Shown: one piece after another, positions 10,230 through 53,272 of the stretch
Layout of the letters: every line of letters starts with the position of its first letter
Position numbering within the stretch: the stretch's first letter is position 1
DNA from: Gemmatimonadaceae bacterium
Lineage (GTDB): Bacteria > Gemmatimonadota > Gemmatimonadetes > Gemmatimonadales > Gemmatimonadaceae
NCBI GenBank assembly: GCA_025931335.1
Contig: JAICNG010000001.1
Coordinates: forward strand, 20,676-84,675
Length of the DNA stretch: 64,000 bases
Direction: 5' to 3'
Notes under the pieces: model-generated
Told to the model about the DNA's origin: nothing
What the model saw: the letters and a program-made list of their open reading frames with translations, nothing else
The model's database searches: none
Position numbers and translations under genes: made by a program

Positions 10230-10804
10230 GGCATCCAAGTTCAAAGGGGGGACGCGGATGCCGCGGATGCAGCGGATCAGGCGGATTTGCTGCCTTTGTT
10301 ACTGCAGAACACCCGGTGGAAGCGAGGCTCCAATCCGAAATGCAGCAGGAGCCCAACTTCAAGACTGGTTGCACGGAGATAGTTGAAGAGTTGCCGCTGG
10401 GCCGCACCGGGGAGCTCGGCGCCCGCCTTCGTTTCGACGACGACTTTTTCATCCACGATCATGTCGATTCGCTGCACGGCGAGAACGTGATCCTTATAGG
10501 CCACGTGGACGCTGACTTCTCTTGCCACGCGATGGCCGCGATCGATCAGCTCACGCTCCAGCGCCATCACGTACACGTGCTCGAGGAAGCCGAACCCAAG
10601 GGTGTTGTACACCTCGAAGAACGCGCCAATGATCGAGCGTGTCGGCCGCTCCTCCGGCAAGGGAATTCTGGTCATGCGAGAGGATACTTCCACGGCGCAC
10701 GACAAAGTCATCAGACCTATGCGCCAATGATCACGATTTACCGGTCACTATCCGCCTGATCCGCTGCATCGGCCGCATCCGCATGTCCTTTGAACTTGGA
10801 TGCC
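10230..10804. mobile_element. Candidate GxxExxY element: single gene bounded by about 56-bp inverted repeats
   Basis: The left arm (10230-10286) and right arm (10750-10804) are inverted copies with only a few mismatches. Both carry GGCATCCAAGTTCAAAGG at the outer end and GCAGCGGATCAGGCGGAT at the inner end, with GCGGATGC words between. The only gene inside is the GxxExxY protein, whose 3' end lies in the left arm. No transposase is present. A lone copy of one outer end is found at 46265-46304, showing that this terminus is dispersed. No target-site duplication could be identified by eye. Confidence 0.65.
10277..10675 (-). CDS. GxxExxY family protein (PD-(D/E)XK-like fold suspected)
   Basis: The 132-residue protein contains GFLEHVY, the family-defining GxxExxY motif, near residue 27, then RIDMIVDEKVVVETKAGAEL, whose D...ExK arrangement fits a PD-(D/E)XK nuclease-like core, then AAQRQLFNYLRAT and VGLLLHFG, the usual C-terminal helix and strand. 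Function of the family is not established. The last residues (SNKGSKSA) are encoded by the repeat arm. ATG at 10675 is chosen because homology starts nearby; no ribosome binding site is evident. Confidence 0.88.
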   Translation of the reverse strand: MTRIPLPEERPTRSIIGAFFEVYNTLGFGFLEHVYVMALERELIDRGHRVAREVSVHVAYKDHVLAVQRIDMIVDEKVVVETKAGAELPGAAQRQLFNYLRATSLEVGLLLHFGLEPRFHRVFCSNKGSKSA

Positions 10805-10845: not shown

Positions 10846-12021
10846 ATGTTTCGACAAACGCCGAACGAGGGAGCAGTGGCAGAACGGGACCACGCGGTGG
10901 TCGCTGAAGATCCCGCGACTGTCGTCCGCACAAGGTACTGGCATCGACTGGACGACGGGCGCGTTCAGTGCGACATCTGTCCGCGCGCGTGCAAGCTGCG
11001 CGACGGGCAACGCGGCCTCTGCTTCGTCCGCGCCTGTCAGGACGGCGAGATCGTCCTCACGACGTACGGGCGATCGAGCGGTTTTTGCGTCGATCCGATC
11101 GAGAAGAAACCGCTGAATCACTTCCTGCCCGGAACGCCCGTCCTGTCATTCGGAACGGCCGGGTGCAACCTGGCCTGCAAGTTCTGCCAGAACTGGGACA
11201 TTTCGAAGTCCCGCGAGATGGACACGCTCGCCGACGCGGCCTCTCCCGACGAGATCGCGGGCACCGCGCTGCGGCTCGGCTGCCAAAGCGTGGCGTTTAC
11301 CTACAACGATCCGGTGATCTTCCACGAGTACGCGATCGACGTGGCCCGGGCGTGCCGAGCGCGCGGGATCAAGAGTGTCGCCGTCACGGCGGGATACCAG
11401 AACGCCGACGCGCGCGCGGAGTTCTACCAGTACATGGACGCGGCGAACGTCGACCTCAAGGCATTCACCGACACGTTCTATCGCGAGATCTGCGCCGGCC
11501 ATCTCCAGCCGGTCCTCGACACGCTCGTCTATCTGAAACACGAGACCAGCGTCTGGTTCGAGATCACCAACCTGGTGATTCCCGGCCTCAACGACTGTGA
11601 CGACGAATTCGACGCGATGACGCGGTGGGTGGTCGGCGAGCTTGGCCCCGACGTGCCGATCCACTTCACCGCCTTTCACCCCGACTGGAGAATGCGCGAC
11701 CGGCCGCACACGCCACCGGCGACGCTCGCGCGTGCGCGCCAGATCGCGCTCCGGAACGGCGTACGATACGCGTATACCGGGAACGTCCACGACAGGGCCG
11801 GCGGGACGACCACCTGCCACGGGTGCGGTACGCCGCTGATCGTGCGCGACTGGTACGAGCTCCTCGAGTGGAATCTCACGACCGATGGCCGCTGTCGTTG
11901 CTGCAACGCCGAATGCGCCGGAGAGTTTGTCGGTCCGCCGGGTGACTGGGGAGCGCACCGGCAGGCGGTGCGCCTAACGGCGCGCGGACGCCCACCTCGA
12001 TCGCCGAGAGGAACGACGTGA
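10846..12021 (+). CDS. amrS: AmmeMemoRadiSam system radical SAM enzyme
   Basis: The 391-residue enzyme has the radical SAM cluster motif CNLACKFCQNWDIS (residues about 107-120), an upstream cysteine-rich region CDICPRACKLRDGQRGLC, and a C-terminal cysteine pair region (CHGCGTPL, then CRCCNAEC) likely to bind another metal. YNDPVIFHEYAIDVA and NVDLKAFTDTFYREIC are AmrS signatures. The usual partner genes (AMMECR1 and Memo) are not in the window. Its natural modification target is not established. The stop overlaps the GTG of the BNR gene. Confidence 0.92.
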   Translation: MFRQTPNEGAVAERDHAVVAEDPATVVRTRYWHRLDDGRVQCDICPRACKLRDGQRGLCFVRACQDGEIVLTTYGRSSGFCVDPIEKKPLNHFLPGTPVLSFGTAGCNLACKFCQNWDISKSREMDTLADAASPDEIAGTALRLGCQSVAFTYNDPVIFHEYAIDVARACRARGIKSVAVTAGYQNADARAEFYQYMDAANVDLKAFTDTFYREICAGHLQPVLDTLVYLKHETSVWFEITNLVIPGLNDCDDEFDAMTRWVVGELGPDVPIHFTAFHPDWRMRDRPHTPPATLARARQIALRNGVRYAYTGNVHDRAGGTTTCHGCGTPLIVRDWYELLEWNLTTDGRCRCCNAECAGEFVGPPGDWGAHRQAVRLTARGRPPRSPRGTT

Positions 12022-13088
12022 GCATACCCCTTCGTCCCGTCGCGTCGCTGTGTCTGCTCGCGGGGTGTCTTCACTCCGGGACATCCGAGCTCGAGCGCGC
12101 CCCCGCATCACCGCCCGTGCTCGCCGCGCAGCGGAGCGGCACCACCGCCCTGCTCCAGGCGGTGAGCGCGCCAAGCGCGCGGGTGGCCTGGGTGAGCGGG
12201 CATCGCGGCACCTATGCGGTGACGACCGATGGAGGCGCGAGCTGGCGCGCGGCGGTCGTCCCCGAGGGGGATTCCCTCCAGTTTCGTGACGTCTACGCCG
12301 TCGACGAGCGGACGGCCTGGCTGCTCGCCGCCGGCGACGGCGATCGCTCACGCATCTATCACACGACGAATGGCGGGCAGACGTGGACGCTCCAGTTTCG
12401 GAATACGGACCCCCGCGCGTTTTACGACTGTCTCGACTTCTGGGATGCGCGGCGCGGGCTCGCCTTCAGCGACGCGGTCGATGGACGCTTTGGCATCCTC
12501 ACGACGAGCGATGGTGGCCGCACGTGGGCGCGCGTCCCTGACGAGGCGTTGCCGGCGGCGCGGGCGGGAGAAGGGGCGTTCGCGGCGAGCGGCACCTGCG
12601 TGATCACGGGCACCGGCGGCCGCGCATGGATCTCCACTGGCAATGCCCCGCCGGAATCACGCATCCTCTATACGGCCGACTACGGACGCAGCTGGAGCGT
12701 CTTTCTCACGCCGCTCTCGGCGGGCGAAGCCGCCGGTGCCGCGACGCTCACCTTCCGCGATACTCTGCACGGGGTGGCGTTAGGCGGCCCGCTCGGCCGC
12801 CCGACCGAGCGTGGCGATCGGACCGCCGTGACCGGGGATGGCGGACGCACGTGGACGCTCGGTGGCCGCCCGGCGATGGCGGGCGCGGTGTACGGGTCCG
12901 CGTACCTCCCTCGCACCCCGGCGCTCGTCGCCGTCGGCCCCGGCGGAATGGACTGGTCGGCCGATGACGCGCGCTCCTGGAGCCGGCTCGACACGCTTGC
13001 ATACTGGAGCGTCGGATTCGCCCGAACGGGGCGTGCAGGTTGGGCGGTCGGGCCGAATGGCCGCATCACCAAACTCGTCATCGAATAG
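12018..13088 (+). CDS. BNR/YCF48-like propeller lipoprotein
   Basis: The GTG start overlaps the amrS stop. LCLLAGCLHSG is a lipobox, so the protein is probably lipid-anchored. Asp-box repeats recur: TTDGGASWRA, TTNGGQTWTL, TSDGGRTWAR, TADYGRSWSV, TGDGGRTWTL. The five or more visible repeats fit a six- or seven-bladed sialidase-like or HCF136-like propeller. No sialidase catalytic residues are apparent, so a binding or assembly role is more likely than hydrolysis. Confidence 0.85.
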   Translation: MSIPLRPVASLCLLAGCLHSGTSELERAPASPPVLAAQRSGTTALLQAVSAPSARVAWVSGHRGTYAVTTDGGASWRAAVVPEGDSLQFRDVYAVDERTAWLLAAGDGDRSRIYHTTNGGQTWTLQFRNTDPRAFYDCLDFWDARRGLAFSDAVDGRFGILTTSDGGRTWARVPDEALPAARAGEGAFAASGTCVITGTGGRAWISTGNAPPESRILYTADYGRSWSVFLTPLSAGEAAGAATLTFRDTLHGVALGGPLGRPTERGDRTAVTGDGGRTWTLGGRPAMAGAVYGSAYLPRTPALVAVGPGGMDWSADDARSWSRLDTLAYWSVGFARTGRAGWAVGPNGRITKLVIE

Positions 13089-13091
13089 GCC

Positions 13092-14726
13092 ATGCGCTTT
13101 CGCGTCCTCCTTCTCGCCCTCGCGCTCACCAGTCACGTCGCGCACGCGCAGGCAGCGCAGCGACAAGACACCGTCGGCCGGGTCGACAGCCTGTTTTCCC
13201 GGTTGACCACGAGCACTCCCGGATGCGCCGTCGGCGTCTCGCGCCACGGACGAACCGCGCTCGCCAGGGCGTACGGCATGGCGAACCTCGAGTACGACGC
13301 GCCGCTCACGACGGAATCGATCATCGAAGCGGGCTCCGTGGCCAAGCAGTTCACCGCCGCCGCCGTCCTGTTGCTCGCGCAGCAGGGGAAGCTTTCCATC
13401 GACGATCCGGTGCGGAAGCACATCCCGGAACTTCCCGACTACGGTGCGCCGCTCACGATCCGGCACATGCTCAATCACACGAGCGGGCTGCGGGACTGGG
13501 GCACGGTGGCGGCCGTGGAGGGGTGGCCGCGTGGCTCTCGTGTGCACACGCACGATCACGTCCTCGACATCGTCACCCGGCAACGCTCGCTCAACTTCCC
13601 ACCGGGGAGCGAGTACCTCTACAGCAACACCGGATACAACCTGCTCGCGATCATCGTGCAGCGGGTGAGTGGCCGCGCCTTCGCCGACTTCACGCGCACC
13701 GAGATCTTCGAGCCGCTCGGGATGGCGCGCACGTCCTGGCGTGATGACTACACGCGCGTCGTGAAGGGGCGCGCGACCGCCTATTCACCCACCCGCACCG
13801 GATTCCGTCTCAACATGCCGTTCGAGAACGTGCATGGAAACGGCGGGCTGCTCACCACGGTGGAGGACCTGCTGCGGTGGAGCGCCAATTTCGACGCCGG
13901 GCACGTCGGCGGGCCGGCGCTGCTGCGCGAGCAGGTGCGCCCCGGCCGCCTTACGAGCGGGCGCGAGATCGAGTACGCCGCGGGTCTCGGCGTGTCACGA
14001 TACCGCGGCGTGCCCCAGGTGAGTCACAGCGGTGCCACCGCTGGCTATCGCGCCTTCCTCGCCCGGTATCCCGATCAGGGGCTCGCCGTCGCCGTGTTGT
14101 GCAACCACGCCGGCGCGCCCGCCGTCACCCTCGGCCACCGCGTCGCCGATCTGTTCCTCGGTGCGGCCGCCACCGATCCCGCGCCGCCGAAGACAATCGC
14201 GCTCGCGCCGGACGTGCTCGCCGCGCGCGCCGGCCTCTACCGCAACACCGTCACCTGGGAGCCGCTGCGGATCTCCGTGCGTGACGGGAAGCTCATCGAC
14301 AACCGAGGCACCGAGGCGGTTGCCCTCTCGCCCAACCTGTTCCACGCATCGAACGGTGGGCGCGCGCTGTTCGACGTTGCGCCCGATGGGCGAACGCGCG
14401 CATTGCGACTCCTGCAGGAGGATGGAGACACGCTCCTCTTTCTGCCCGTCGAGCCGTGGACGCCAGCGCCCGGCGATCTCGCGCCCTTCGCCGGAACGTA
14501 CACGAGCGATGAGGCGGCGGCGACGTTCACCCTCGTGCAGCAGGCAGGTAAACTCCTTCTGCGCCAGCGCCCGACCCTTTCCCTCGAGCTGCAGCCGCGA
14601 TATCGCGACGTCTTCGAGGTCCCCACCGGCGACATCATCCGCTTCGTTCGCGATGACAGCGGGAAGGTCATCGAGATGAGCATCTTTCTGGGGCGGGTGA
14701 GGGATTTACGCTTCAAAAGACAATGA
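13092..14726 (+). CDS. Beta-lactamase-family serine hydrolase, secreted
   Basis: A signal peptide ends at HVAHAQ. The 544-residue protein has the class C/penicillin-binding fold: nucleophile motif SVAK (GSVAKQFTAAAV, residue about 81), YSNTGYN as the YxN motif, and SHSGATAGY as the KTG-equivalent HSG. A C-terminal domain of about 170 residues (from LYRNTVTWEPL) resembles the lipocalin-like extensions of DUF3471-type esterases. It probably hydrolyses esters or D-amino peptides in the periplasm. The stop codon is the first TGA of an inverted repeat (14722-14811). Confidence 0.9.
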   Translation: MRFRVLLLALALTSHVAHAQAAQRQDTVGRVDSLFSRLTTSTPGCAVGVSRHGRTALARAYGMANLEYDAPLTTESIIEAGSVAKQFTAAAVLLLAQQGKLSIDDPVRKHIPELPDYGAPLTIRHMLNHTSGLRDWGTVAAVEGWPRGSRVHTHDHVLDIVTRQRSLNFPPGSEYLYSNTGYNLLAIIVQRVSGRAFADFTRTEIFEPLGMARTSWRDDYTRVVKGRATAYSPTRTGFRLNMPFENVHGNGGLLTTVEDLLRWSANFDAGHVGGPALLREQVRPGRLTSGREIEYAAGLGVSRYRGVPQVSHSGATAGYRAFLARYPDQGLAVAVLCNHAGAPAVTLGHRVADLFLGAAATDPAPPKTIALAPDVLAARAGLYRNTVTWEPLRISVRDGKLIDNRGTEAVALSPNLFHASNGGRALFDVAPDGRTRALRLLQEDGDTLLFLPVEPWTPAPGDLAPFAGTYTSDEAAATFTLVQQAGKLLLRQRPTLSLELQPRYRDVFEVPTGDIIRFVRDDSGKVIEMSIFLGRVRDLRFKRQ

Positions 14727-14811
14727 GGAATGAGGACTGAGGAGTGAGGAATACGATTGGCCAAGAGTCCACTCAATCGAATTGCTCACTCCTCGGTCCT
14801 CATTCCTCATT
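14722..14811. repeat. TGAGGAATGAGGA inverted repeat, copy 1 (probable bidirectional terminator)
   Basis: Two 38-bp arms (14722-14759 and 14774-14811) match at about 34 positions around a 14-nt loop. The arms are made of the word TGAGGA with small variations. The element begins in the last codon of the hydrolase gene and lies between two convergent genes, so it could stop transcription from both sides. Related copies are at 30910 and 35452. Confidence 0.85.
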
Positions 14812-14823
14812 CTCCGGGCGGCC

Positions 14824-21720: not shown

Positions 21721-21942
21721 CGGGGACGATCGCGGTGACGGGGCCACGGACCGCCGGAACTGACGAATCACCCGAATGACGCGAAGAGCGCACTGCGCCG
21801 CAGCACGCTCCAGACGCGGATGAAGTTCCGGAAGGCTCCTTCGGTTAACACCTCGCGGAGCCGGCTCGCGCGCTCGATCATTCGCGTGATACGGGTCATT
21901 CGGCAGTTTCGGCTGTCCGTGGCCGCTGTCGGGCAGTGCCCA
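21721..21942. repeat. CCGAATGACCC inverted repeat, copy 1
   Basis: Outer arms of about 60 bp match in inverted order: the left carries GGGGCCACGGACCGCCGGAA and ACCCGAATGACGCGAA, the right carries the reverse complement of CGGCCACGGACAGCCGAAAC and TGACCCGTATCACGCGAA. About 90 bp of weaker inner symmetry lies between. It sits upstream of the TetR start and downstream of the small membrane gene. Copies 2 and 3 are at 42560 and 53074. Confidence 0.75.
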
Positions 21943-22263: not shown

Positions 22264-22295
22264 GGGGTTGGTCGGGGTTGGTACCCCGATTCTAG

Positions 22296-22437
22296 CGGGC
22301 CACGGGTCGGGGGCCAAGGGCCGAGGGGATGGTAAGGCGAGCGGCCTGCGGCCGCTCGCTTCATCTGATGAGGCGGCAGCGGCGGAGCCGCGCCGCCTTT
22401 CCACCCCCTTGGCCCCTGGCCCCTGGCCCGCGACCCT
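22296..22437. repeat. Cloverleaf repeat, copy 1 (reverse orientation)
   Basis: Outer arms are GGGCCAAGG-type words. Inside, a core (22330-22403) bounded by TGGTAA...TTTCCA holds two strong hairpins, GCGAGCGGCC/GGCCGCTCGC and GGCGGC/GCCGCC, joined by TTCATCTGATGA. The core is the reverse complement of the cores at 23813-23886 and 48906-48989. It occupies the region between the divergent membrane-protein and P450 genes and so overlaps their likely promoters. Confidence 0.85.
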
Positions 22438-28244: not shown

Positions 28245-28310
28245 GCGGTAGAGGTTGTGGCGACAGCGTCGCTGGTGGCAAGGGCGTTTCGGGAGCCGTC
28301 CGGGCTCTTT

Positions 28311-28485
28311 TGCGCCACGAGCCGTAACGGCGGTATCACAGAGGGCACCGAGACGCACACAGGGACTCACAGAGGACCCCAACCGCAAGAGCTTTTTCCA
28401 AAAGCTTCGCGGTTGCAGTCCCTCCGTGAGTCCCTGTGGATGTCTCTGTGGCCTCTGTGATAACGCTGTGACGGCTCGTGGCGCA
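28311..28485. repeat. CACAGAGGACACC-word inverted repeat, copy 1
   Basis: Two arms of about 87 bp match at roughly 85 percent in inverted order, centred on CTTTTTCCAAAAG. Both ends read TGCGCCACGAGCCGT. The arms contain words such as TATCACAGAGG and ACAGGGACTCAC. The element fills most of the divergent promoter region between the GHL10 and DUF885 genes. A second copy is at 34325. Confidence 0.85.
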
Positions 28486-28536
28486 ACGAACGGAGGACCC
28501 TTGCGCGATCCCCCTCCCCGCCGCAGCCTTTTCCGA

Positions 28537-31516: not shown

Positions 31517-31524
31517 GACCCAGC

Positions 31525-31618
31525 GAGGTGCTCGAGGTGCTCGACGTGCTCGAGGTGCTCGAGGGCGCCGCGGTTCCCCCTCGAGCACCTGGAGCACCTC
31601 GAGCACGTCGAGCACCTC
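31525..31618. repeat. GAGGTGCTC inverted repeat between convergent genes
   Basis: The left arm (31525-31564) is four units of GAGGTGCTC or GACGTGCTC; the right arm (31580-31618) is the inverted series of GAGCACCTC. The spacer is 15 nt. It lies 9 bases after one stop codon and 5 bases before the stop codon of the opposing gene, so a bidirectional terminator role is plausible. Confidence 0.85.
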
Positions 31619-31622
31619 GATT

Positions 31623-34324: not shown

Positions 34325-34500
34325 CGCGCAACGAGCCCTGACAGCATGATCACAGAGGACACCGAGACATTCACCGAGACTCACAGAGAACACCAACGGC
34401 AAGGGCTTTTTCCAAAGGCTTGCGCAGTTGCGGCTCCTCGGTGAGTCCCTGTGGATGTCTCGGTGTCCTCTGTGATAACGCTGTTACGGCTCGTTGCGCA
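34325..34500. repeat. CACAGAGGACACC-word inverted repeat, copy 2
   Basis: Arms of about 87 bp, inverted and about 85 percent alike, are bounded by GCGCAACGAGCC and its inverse, with the same GGGCTTTTTCCAAAGG centre as copy 1. Words include ATCACAGAGGACACCGAGAC. Like copy 1 it fills a divergent promoter region, here between the D-aminoacylase and the EamA transporter. Confidence 0.85.
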
Positions 34501-34515
34501 TTGCACCAGGAACCG

Positions 34516-35463
34516 TTGTTCAAACGCGCGGACTTAAATAGACTCCCGGCCCACAGCCCCACAAGAGAGAACGCCACGCCCGCACGACCGCCTTCCACTG
34601 CTCGCGCCACGCTCTTCATCGTGCTTGGCGCGCTGTGCTTCGGCGCCATCGCGATCTTCGTCGTGCTCGCGCGCCGCGCCGGCGCCCCGCTCACCTCGAT
34701 TCTTTCGTGGCGCTTTCTCCTGGCGGCCCTTTTCCTCACCATCGCCGCCGGCGGTCTTCGAGCGCTGCGCCTGCCGCGCGCGCTGGCCGCGCGCGTGCTG
34801 CTCATCGGTGGCGGCGGGCAAGCGCTCATCTCGTTCCTCGCCCTGCGCGCACTCGATCATCTCCCGGCGGGGACGAACGCGTTCCTCTTCTACACGTATC
34901 CGGCGTGGGTCGCGCTTTTTGCGTTCATCCGCGGCACCGAGCGCGTGGATGCGCGGAGGCTCGTCGCGCTGGCGATCTCATTCGCCGGCATCGCGACGAT
35001 GGTGGGAACGCCGTGGTCCGACACCACCGATGTCCCGCTGGTCGGGGTGCTGCTGTCGTTGTCGGCCGCGGCGTGCTACGGGCTCTACATCCCCGCGATC
35101 GGGCGGTTACAGGAGGGCATTCGTCCCACGGTCGTGTCGGCGTACGTGTCGATTGGCGCTGGGATCGTTCACGTCGCGATTGGACTCGCGACCGGTGGTC
35201 TGACGGCGCGGCTCGCGCCGGAGGCCTGGGCGAGCATCCTCGGCTTCGCGCTCATCGGTACCACGCTCGCCTTCCTGCTATTTCTCCGCGGCCTGGCCGT
35301 GCTCGGCTCAGTGCGGACGGCGATCGTCTCGACCATCGAGCCGTTCTTCACCACCCTGCTCGGCGCGCTCGTCCTCGCGGAGCCGCTTCCTCCCTCGACA
35401 CTCCTTGGCGGCGTGCTGATCGCCATCGCGGTGGGGCTTCTCCAGAAGAAGAATGAGGAATGA
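34516..35463 (+). CDS. EamA/DMT family transporter
   Basis: The protein has about ten hydrophobic helices in two EamA repeats: ATLFIVLGALCFGAIAIFVV starts the first and GVLLSLSAAACYGLYIPAIG the second; FLALRALDHLPAGTNAFLFY is typical EamA sequence. Substrates of such drug/metabolite exporters are varied. The start is uncertain because a repeat runs up to 34500. TTG at 34516 with AGGAA before it is the best candidate, TTG at 34501 is another, and ATG codons further up lie inside the repeat. The stop codon is part of the next repeat. Confidence 0.85.
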   Translation: MFKRADLNRLPAHSPTRENATPARPPSTARATLFIVLGALCFGAIAIFVVLARRAGAPLTSILSWRFLLAALFLTIAAGGLRALRLPRALAARVLLIGGGGQALISFLALRALDHLPAGTNAFLFYTYPAWVALFAFIRGTERVDARRLVALAISFAGIATMVGTPWSDTTDVPLVGVLLSLSAAACYGLYIPAIGRLQEGIRPTVVSAYVSIGAGIVHVAIGLATGGLTARLAPEAWASILGFALIGTTLAFLLFLRGLAVLGSVRTAIVSTIEPFFTTLLGALVLAEPLPPSTLLGGVLIAIAVGLLQKKNEE

Positions 35464-35524
35464 GGAGTGAGGAAATCGATTGAGCTCGGTTGTCAATTCC
35501 TCACTGCTCGGTCCTCATTCCTCA
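35452..35524. repeat. TGAGGAATGAGGA inverted repeat, copy 3
   Basis: The left arm (35452-35482) starts AATGAGGAATGAGGAGTGAG and includes the transporter's last two codons and stop; the right arm (35491-35524) ends CGGTCCTCATTCCTCA. The loop is 8 nt. It could terminate the transporter transcript. Confidence 0.85.
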
Positions 35525-42559: not shown

Positions 42560-42705
42560 AAGATCCCGGTGGCGGGGCCACGCACGGTCTGAGGAACGAA
42601 TGACCCGAAGGGCGCGAATGAAATTCGAATCGATTCGAATTTCATTCGCGCCCTTCGGGTCATTCGTTTTGTCAGGCAGTACGTGGCCCTGCGATCGGAA
42701 CCTCG
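42560..42705. repeat. CCGAATGACCC inverted repeat, copy 2, with a perfect 74-bp palindrome
   Basis: Positions 42595-42668 are a perfect palindrome with no loop (axis between 42631 and 42632; arms AACGAATGACCCGAAGGGCG...). Imperfect symmetry extends outward through GGGCCACG on both sides to about 42560 and 42705. It lies between the Nudix start and the end of the amidohydrolase gene. Perfect symmetry suggests recent formation or active correction. Confidence 0.9.
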
Positions 42706-46264: not shown

Positions 46265-46304
46265 GGGACGTCGGGCTGGCATCCAAGTTAAAAGGGGGGA
46301 CGCG
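46265..46304 (+). repeat. Solo terminus of the GxxExxY element
   Basis: CGGGCTGGCATCCAAGTT followed by AAAAGGGGGGACGCGGATGC matches the outer left end of the element at 10230 with very few changes. There is no inverted partner and no gene. It lies in the divergent region between the amidohydrolase and S9 peptidase genes. Confidence 0.75.
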
Positions 46305-51210: not shown

Positions 51211-51326
51211 CAGGAGTCGGGAGTCAGGGATCAGGGGGTGTCAGGGTCGAGGAGGGCAGGGCCCGCGCGAGTCGTTCTCCTCGCACCTTCCCCTGACACC
51301 CCCTGATTCCTGACTCCTAACTCCTA
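51211..51326. repeat. GGAGTCAGG-word inverted repeat at the helicase stop codon
   Basis: Arms of about 40 bp (51211-51250 and 51288-51326) match closely in inverted order, sharing ATCAGGGGGTGTCAGGG. On the minus strand the element begins with the helicase's own TAG stop (TAGGAGTTAGGAGTCAGGAA), the same arrangement as the TGAGGAA family. It may terminate the helicase transcript. Confidence 0.85.
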
Positions 51327-53073: not shown

Positions 53074-53272
53074 GTGCGCCACGAAGGCCACAAAAGCGGA
53101 ACACCCGAATGACCCGAATCTGACGGCAAAAGGGCCGAATACGGCAACGGCAAATCGTTACTCGAGACGGTCTTGCCCCCGACTCGTGCAGTTGCCGTTG
53201 CCGTATTCGGCCGTTTGCGGTTCAGATTCGCGCGATTCGGCTGTTCGAGCGTTCCGTGGCCGTTGCGCCCGA
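53074..53272. repeat. CCGAATGACCC inverted repeat, copy 3
   Basis: Arms of about 85 bp (left from GTGCGCCACGAAGGCCACAA; right ending CGTTCCGTGGCCGTTGCGCC) share GGCCGAATACGGCAACGGCA and CGAATCTGA in inverted order. The centre contains CTCGAGACGG. It lies between the helicase start and the end of the TonB receptor gene. It shares GGCCACGGA and ACCCGAATGACCCGAAT with copies 1 and 2. Confidence 0.8.

Follow-up and report, generated by a model that had tools for sequence, protein, structure and literature searches.

RAYT proteins are thought to help copy the palindromes known as REPINs. The RAYT gene is low-copy, mostly vertically inherited and flanked by its own dispersed extragenic palindromes, and the type of palindrome goes with the type of protein (PMC3116915; PMC8266576). 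A related layout is known from the intervening sequences of 23S rRNA, in which an ORF of the S23/TIGR02436 family lies between inverted arms (PMC4990558). The GxxExxY proteins form a widespread family whose annotation has so far consisted of the motif only. A passage of one paper uses the name solely to annotate a neighbor of a reverse transcriptase (PMC8934634), and PF13366 is mentioned in work on Arctic microalgae. Neither a pairing of these genes with repeats nor the repeat sequences themselves were found described in the literature searched, which left preprints and most subscription papers outside its range.

The GxxExxY locus considered here lies in a 64-kb window (the whole stretch of DNA that was analyzed), and the features of the window are collected in Table 1. 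An original prediction, made from the bare sequence, held that near-identical inverted repeats of 56 bp enclose the gene. The repeats are real: the arms are 55-57 bp long and score 76 in 350-bp flanks under strict inverted-repeat scoring, far over the control positions in the same loci, of which 0/1317 reach 50 and 8/1317 reach 32. The word near-identical was slightly generous, as the alignment of the arms spans 57 columns at 88% and contains a single 2-base gap, while their cores (10254-10286 and 10750-10782) are 94% complementary. The arms enclose no gene other than GxxExxY, whose stop codon falls within the left arm, as had been noted. Membership in the GxxExxY family was likewise borne out, with scores above the curated cut-offs (108.7 bits versus 35 for TIGR04256; 114.1 bits versus 22 for PF13366), but the predicted length of 132 residues corresponds to an internal ATG, and the ORF counted from the first ATG encodes 144 aa. 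A lone outer end reported near 46265 was also recovered, slightly further on. A candidate target duplication beside the window element (CGAGCCGTCCCAGCC / CGAGCCGCCCCAGGC) was dropped because CGAGCC is part of the element's own outer end, and an Rfam search of the window gave no match.

Table 1. Positions of the GxxExxY element and of related palindromes in the window.
Feature	Position	Strand	Basis
GxxExxY gene	10277..10711	-	TIGR04256 2.1e-31, PF13366 6.1e-33; predicted PD-(D/E)XK fold, D83, E93-x-K95
Left arm, GGCATCCAAGTTCAAAGG end and GCGGAT tandem units	10230..10286	+	inverted-repeat alignment; 44 genome copies of end
Right arm, inverted copy of left arm	10750..10804	-	inverted-repeat alignment
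Solo outer end, half element without partner arm	46279..46295	+	C11:66954-66970, one mismatch
Gene-less palindrome, CACAGAG units	28310..28486		80-82% identity to palindrome beside C171 GxxExxY gene
Second gene-less palindrome of CACAGAG family	34326..34499		relative of palindrome beside C171 GxxExxY gene
Gene-less palindrome GGCCACGGACCGCCGGAACTGACGAATCACCCGAATGACGCGAA, C48-flank family	21742..21924		79-85% to C48 GxxExxY flanks
Perfect palindrome, GAAT units	42595..42668		weakly matches C48 flanks
Gene-less palindrome, CCGAAT units	53099..53246		weakly matches C48 flanks

The protein is predicted to adopt a PD-(D/E)XK nuclease fold. Its AlphaFold model (pLDDT 90.9) has this fold and best matches Cas4 SSO0001 among PDB structures (Foldseek E 3.8e-4; VIA Z 10.4), with Hjc (VIA Z 7.4) and MGME1 as lower matches; a PDB sequence search with query A1 gave no match. 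The nuclease-like D...ExK pattern that had been read from the sequence is intact, D83 and E93 being invariant and K95 nearly so in 41 homologues, and together with the model and the structure matches it upholds the earlier assignment to this class. Unlike Cas4, Hjc and MGME1, the protein stands alone, is only about 130 aa long and is partnered with a palindrome family. Six pairs of orthologs or close relatives gave dN/dS values of 0.13-0.24, rough figures because the distances are large, which suggest that GxxExxY genes are under purifying selection.

Flanking repeats proved to be a strong and general trait of GxxExxY genes. A match-1/mismatch-1 inverted-repeat score was discarded in favor of strict scoring because it was too noisy in GC-rich DNA. 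In the phylum of the window, inverted repeats scoring at least 32 flank 27/60 GxxExxY genes, compared with 1/313 other genes of the same loci and with the low rate at control positions given above, and about half of the GxxExxY genes are without an inverted repeat in the strict 350-bp flank test. Across some 20 other phyla, 58/76 loci picked by protein similarity alone are flanked versus 6/811 control positions. Most of the arm sequence consists of short tandem units of 6-9 bp, and a by-eye reading of the arm list from these phyla gives the common consensus TTCACCACRGAGRCACRGAGRRCACRGAG. A fixed GCATCCAAGTT end across loci, which the original prediction had envisaged, was not borne out: that end is specific to the family in this genome, and other ends are found elsewhere. 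A cognate pairing of the GxxExxY protein with palindromes is well supported, and a cognate DNA motif kept across phyla provides a testable function for the family.

The sequence of the units tracks the protein clade. For GLLE proteins the last base of the unit (...GAG) is G in 79 cases, T in 2 and A in 1, and for GFLE proteins (...GAT) it is T in 14, A in 3 and G in 1. Unit type changes label 8 times on the protein tree as against 22.7 times after shuffling (0/200 shuffles as low), and in nine genomes with more than one unit type the type follows the protein, one row with a GYSE motif having G. Because the tree is weakly supported (12 starred of 108 branches) and offers five independent pairs, too few for a formal test, linkage without recognition could still give rise to this covariation. 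Such linkage would suit an explanation in which an unrelated enzyme moves the palindromes and the GxxExxY genes ride between them, as would the MITE-like elements of genome G016 (described below), which have IS-type ends and target duplications. This explanation is nevertheless distinctly unlikely, given that the repeat design is kept in both arms over about 20 phyla and differs within one genome by protein clade, that the genes appear to be under purifying selection, and that several palindrome-rich genomes yielded no HUH transposase (no match to Y1/HUH family PF01797 in G000, G065, G004, G025, G016 and G019).

Repeats and genes are also tied together at the level of whole genomes. At least three copies of CACRGAGNCACRGAG are present in 19/49 genomes with GxxExxY versus 1/101 without (p 5e-10) and, within the family of the window, in 16/36 versus 0/18; inside the GxxExxY-positive set, H-type genes weakly predict the G-type motif (p 0.067). 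The p-values for co-occurrence overstate the case because genomes are not independent, and the reversed control pattern is also common in G004, G048 and G129. Nearly all genomes with CACRGAG repeats carry GxxExxY. An exception is G049, a 97% complete assembly with 54 CACRGAGNCACRGAG matches, many of them as palindromes, in which no GxxExxY gene was detected.

The genome of the window (G000) is rich in palindromes that lack a gene. The end GCATCCAAGTTCAAAGG occurs in 44 copies at two or fewer mismatches, while the reversed pattern has 0, and most copies are paired, face each other at a distance of 190-203 bp and enclose no gene. The arms of the window element also make about 12 gene-less palindromes of approximately 200 bp. 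This genome has four GxxExxY genes, each adjoining a different repeat, and gene-less palindromes match the flanks of three of the four. Directly beside the C171 gene (GLLE type) is a CACAGAG-unit palindrome with two relatives in the window, one of which (28310-28486) has a single-strand fold z of -6.9; the C48 gene (GFVE type) has CGAAT-like units in its arms and one closer and two weaker relatives there (Table 1); and CACGGAT arms flank the C129 gene (GFLE type). With C171- and C48-type palindromes in it, the window therefore matches two of the three other GxxExxY genes in addition to its own arms. The pairing offers a source for many intergenic palindromes.

While palindromes are dispersed, the gene mostly stays in place. 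The sister genome G048 has the window element at the corresponding position; the arms there are 80% identical and the gene carries a frameshift, so the element is old and vertically inherited. A DNA search for the neighboring gene in the genus of the window gave a 51-base match only, and locus comparison then found the ortholog with the element. The AmmeMemoRadiSam-like radical-SAM gene at window 10846-12021, next to the element, is absent from the orthologous site in G048 (L140, G048:C153), in which the homologue of window 12018-13088 comes next after the element. Many GxxExxY loci are orthologous between genera, genomes contain 1-11 matches, and a GLLE-type query found GxxExxY in only 7/72,556 plasmid records. 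At one locus of genus g11, the gene is accompanied by two palindromes in G065 and by one in G031, G201 and G206, has no clear palindromes in G205, and is missing along with the palindromes in G115; at an intergenic site nearby the palindromes differ among three species, and G115 has none. Gene-less copies of the gene-flanking palindrome number about 29 in G065 and about 30 in G031, and dispersed copies occur at about 10 loci in G019. No target duplications were found at the palindromes of G065 and G135. The dispersing entity is the gene-less palindrome. In a comparison of loci L113 and L114 (G055 and G079), a palindrome tandem array just downstream of the GxxExxY gene had about two extra copies in G055, and the gene core showed 0 codon differences.

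These observations bear on the original proposal of a one-gene mobile element, of which the dispersal of repeats stands, while the whole unit is mostly stationary. In its full form, arms and gene would move jointly with GxxExxY as its own transposase or homing nuclease, and the gene-less palindromes would be its MITEs or empty homing targets. The window gene does lie inside one palindrome frame, and G115 lacks gene and palindromes where its relatives have both. Further support comes from G016, which contains a series of elements of 174-387 bp at unrelated sites, with 8-10-bp target duplications in 6/8 (0/500 shuffles), the longer of which retain the two ends of a GxxExxY gene but have lost its middle (L146-L171). 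Movement of a gene-bearing unit is clear only here, and the copies that carry the gene and ends at different sites are truncated and sit inside an extra terminal repeat, a 15-bp sequence (GTAGTGGGTCAGTTT) outside the short units. The G016 duplications were abandoned as proof of self-mobility, and these elements are read as a GxxExxY unit captured by an ordinary MITE, because the palindromes of G065 and G135 lack duplications and the 15-bp repeat lies outside the units. Joint movement of gene and arms therefore seems unlikely, considering also the orthologous, stationary full genes, the copy shared with G048 and the scarcity on plasmids. Short inverted-repeat units, the internal-deletion series and the G016 duplications recall MITEs and insertion sequences; in contrast to these, no transposase was seen inside the paired-end elements examined, the G065 and G135 palindromes are without duplications, and full genes mostly stay put.

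The placement of palindromes raises the alternative of a host or regulatory role, in which palindromes at the ends of genes act as bidirectional terminators or operators, with the resident GxxExxY protein processing hairpins or regulating itself through the flanking units. Among 22 palindromes of G065, 12 lie between convergent, 8 between tandem and 2 between divergent genes, the stems are bordered by T and A runs, and vertical inheritance would also be expected of such a role. However, the units occur in both arms and not on the promoter side alone, presence is patchy, and palindromes turn over between species of one genus, making this alternative quite improbable.

On balance, a family of dispersed palindromic repeats probably has GxxExxY as its low-copy, vertically inherited partner: the gene lies between inverted unit arrays, the same arms recur in dispersed gene-less palindromes, and the units track the protein clade. 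Judged from sequence, the protein would recognize and bind the units directly. Its PD-(D/E)XK site may nick or cut the palindromes, as hairpin, cruciform or duplex, and break repair might then copy them to other intergenic sites, so that the protein could be responsible for their dispersal and the window copy would be an old resident example. Enzymes of the PD-(D/E)XK class cut DNA and do not join it, so an additional activity would be needed for dispersal. The closest analogue, by resemblance only, would be RAYT/REPIN, with hydrolysis in place of HUH chemistry. As in that system, the gene is flanked by palindromes dispersed in the genome (G000, G065, G031), and is low-copy with orthologous loci. 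In contrast, RAYT is an HUH Y1 protein, and the GTAG-tagged REP architecture differs from arms made of CRCRGAG/CRCRGAT arrays. If true, this would be a second palindrome-protein partnership beside RAYT/REPIN, evolved independently and built on a nuclease that cuts but does not join.

The layout of a gene between inverted unit arms recurs with another family in the same phylum. Genes for TIGR02436 four-helix-bundle (23S IVP-type) proteins are flanked by inverted repeats at 21/26 loci (L175-L204), with units that are mostly 7-nt tandem and unlike those of GxxExxY (GGAGTCA, GGGCGTC, AGAGTTG). The 23S intervening sequences likewise hold a single small ORF between inverted arms, but GxxExxY belongs to another family with other units, and the loci examined are intergenic. 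A broader and more tentative reading is that GxxExxY, which is not homologous to RAYTs, may be a PD-(D/E)XK mobilizer of its own palindromes in about 20 phyla or more. Together with TIGR02436 it may belong to a wider, undescribed class of systems that occupy the intergenic DNA of bacteria, each pairing a single small gene with its cognate palindromes.

Further palindromes were seen beside those compared above. The GCATCC palindromes of G000 (L028, L016, L017 and L022) have ends that are tandemly repeated in 22-35-bp units including flanking bases, as if the end had been duplicated repeatedly. The window contains additional intergenic palindromes with 7-9-nt tandem units (GAGGAAT, GGAGTCA, CCTTGGC and GAGCACCTG) at 22295-22431, 31524-31620, 14719-14814, 35448-35523 and 51212-51325; those at 14719-14814 and 51212-51325 are gene-less, and the units of the last three resemble the ones flanking TIGR02436 genes.
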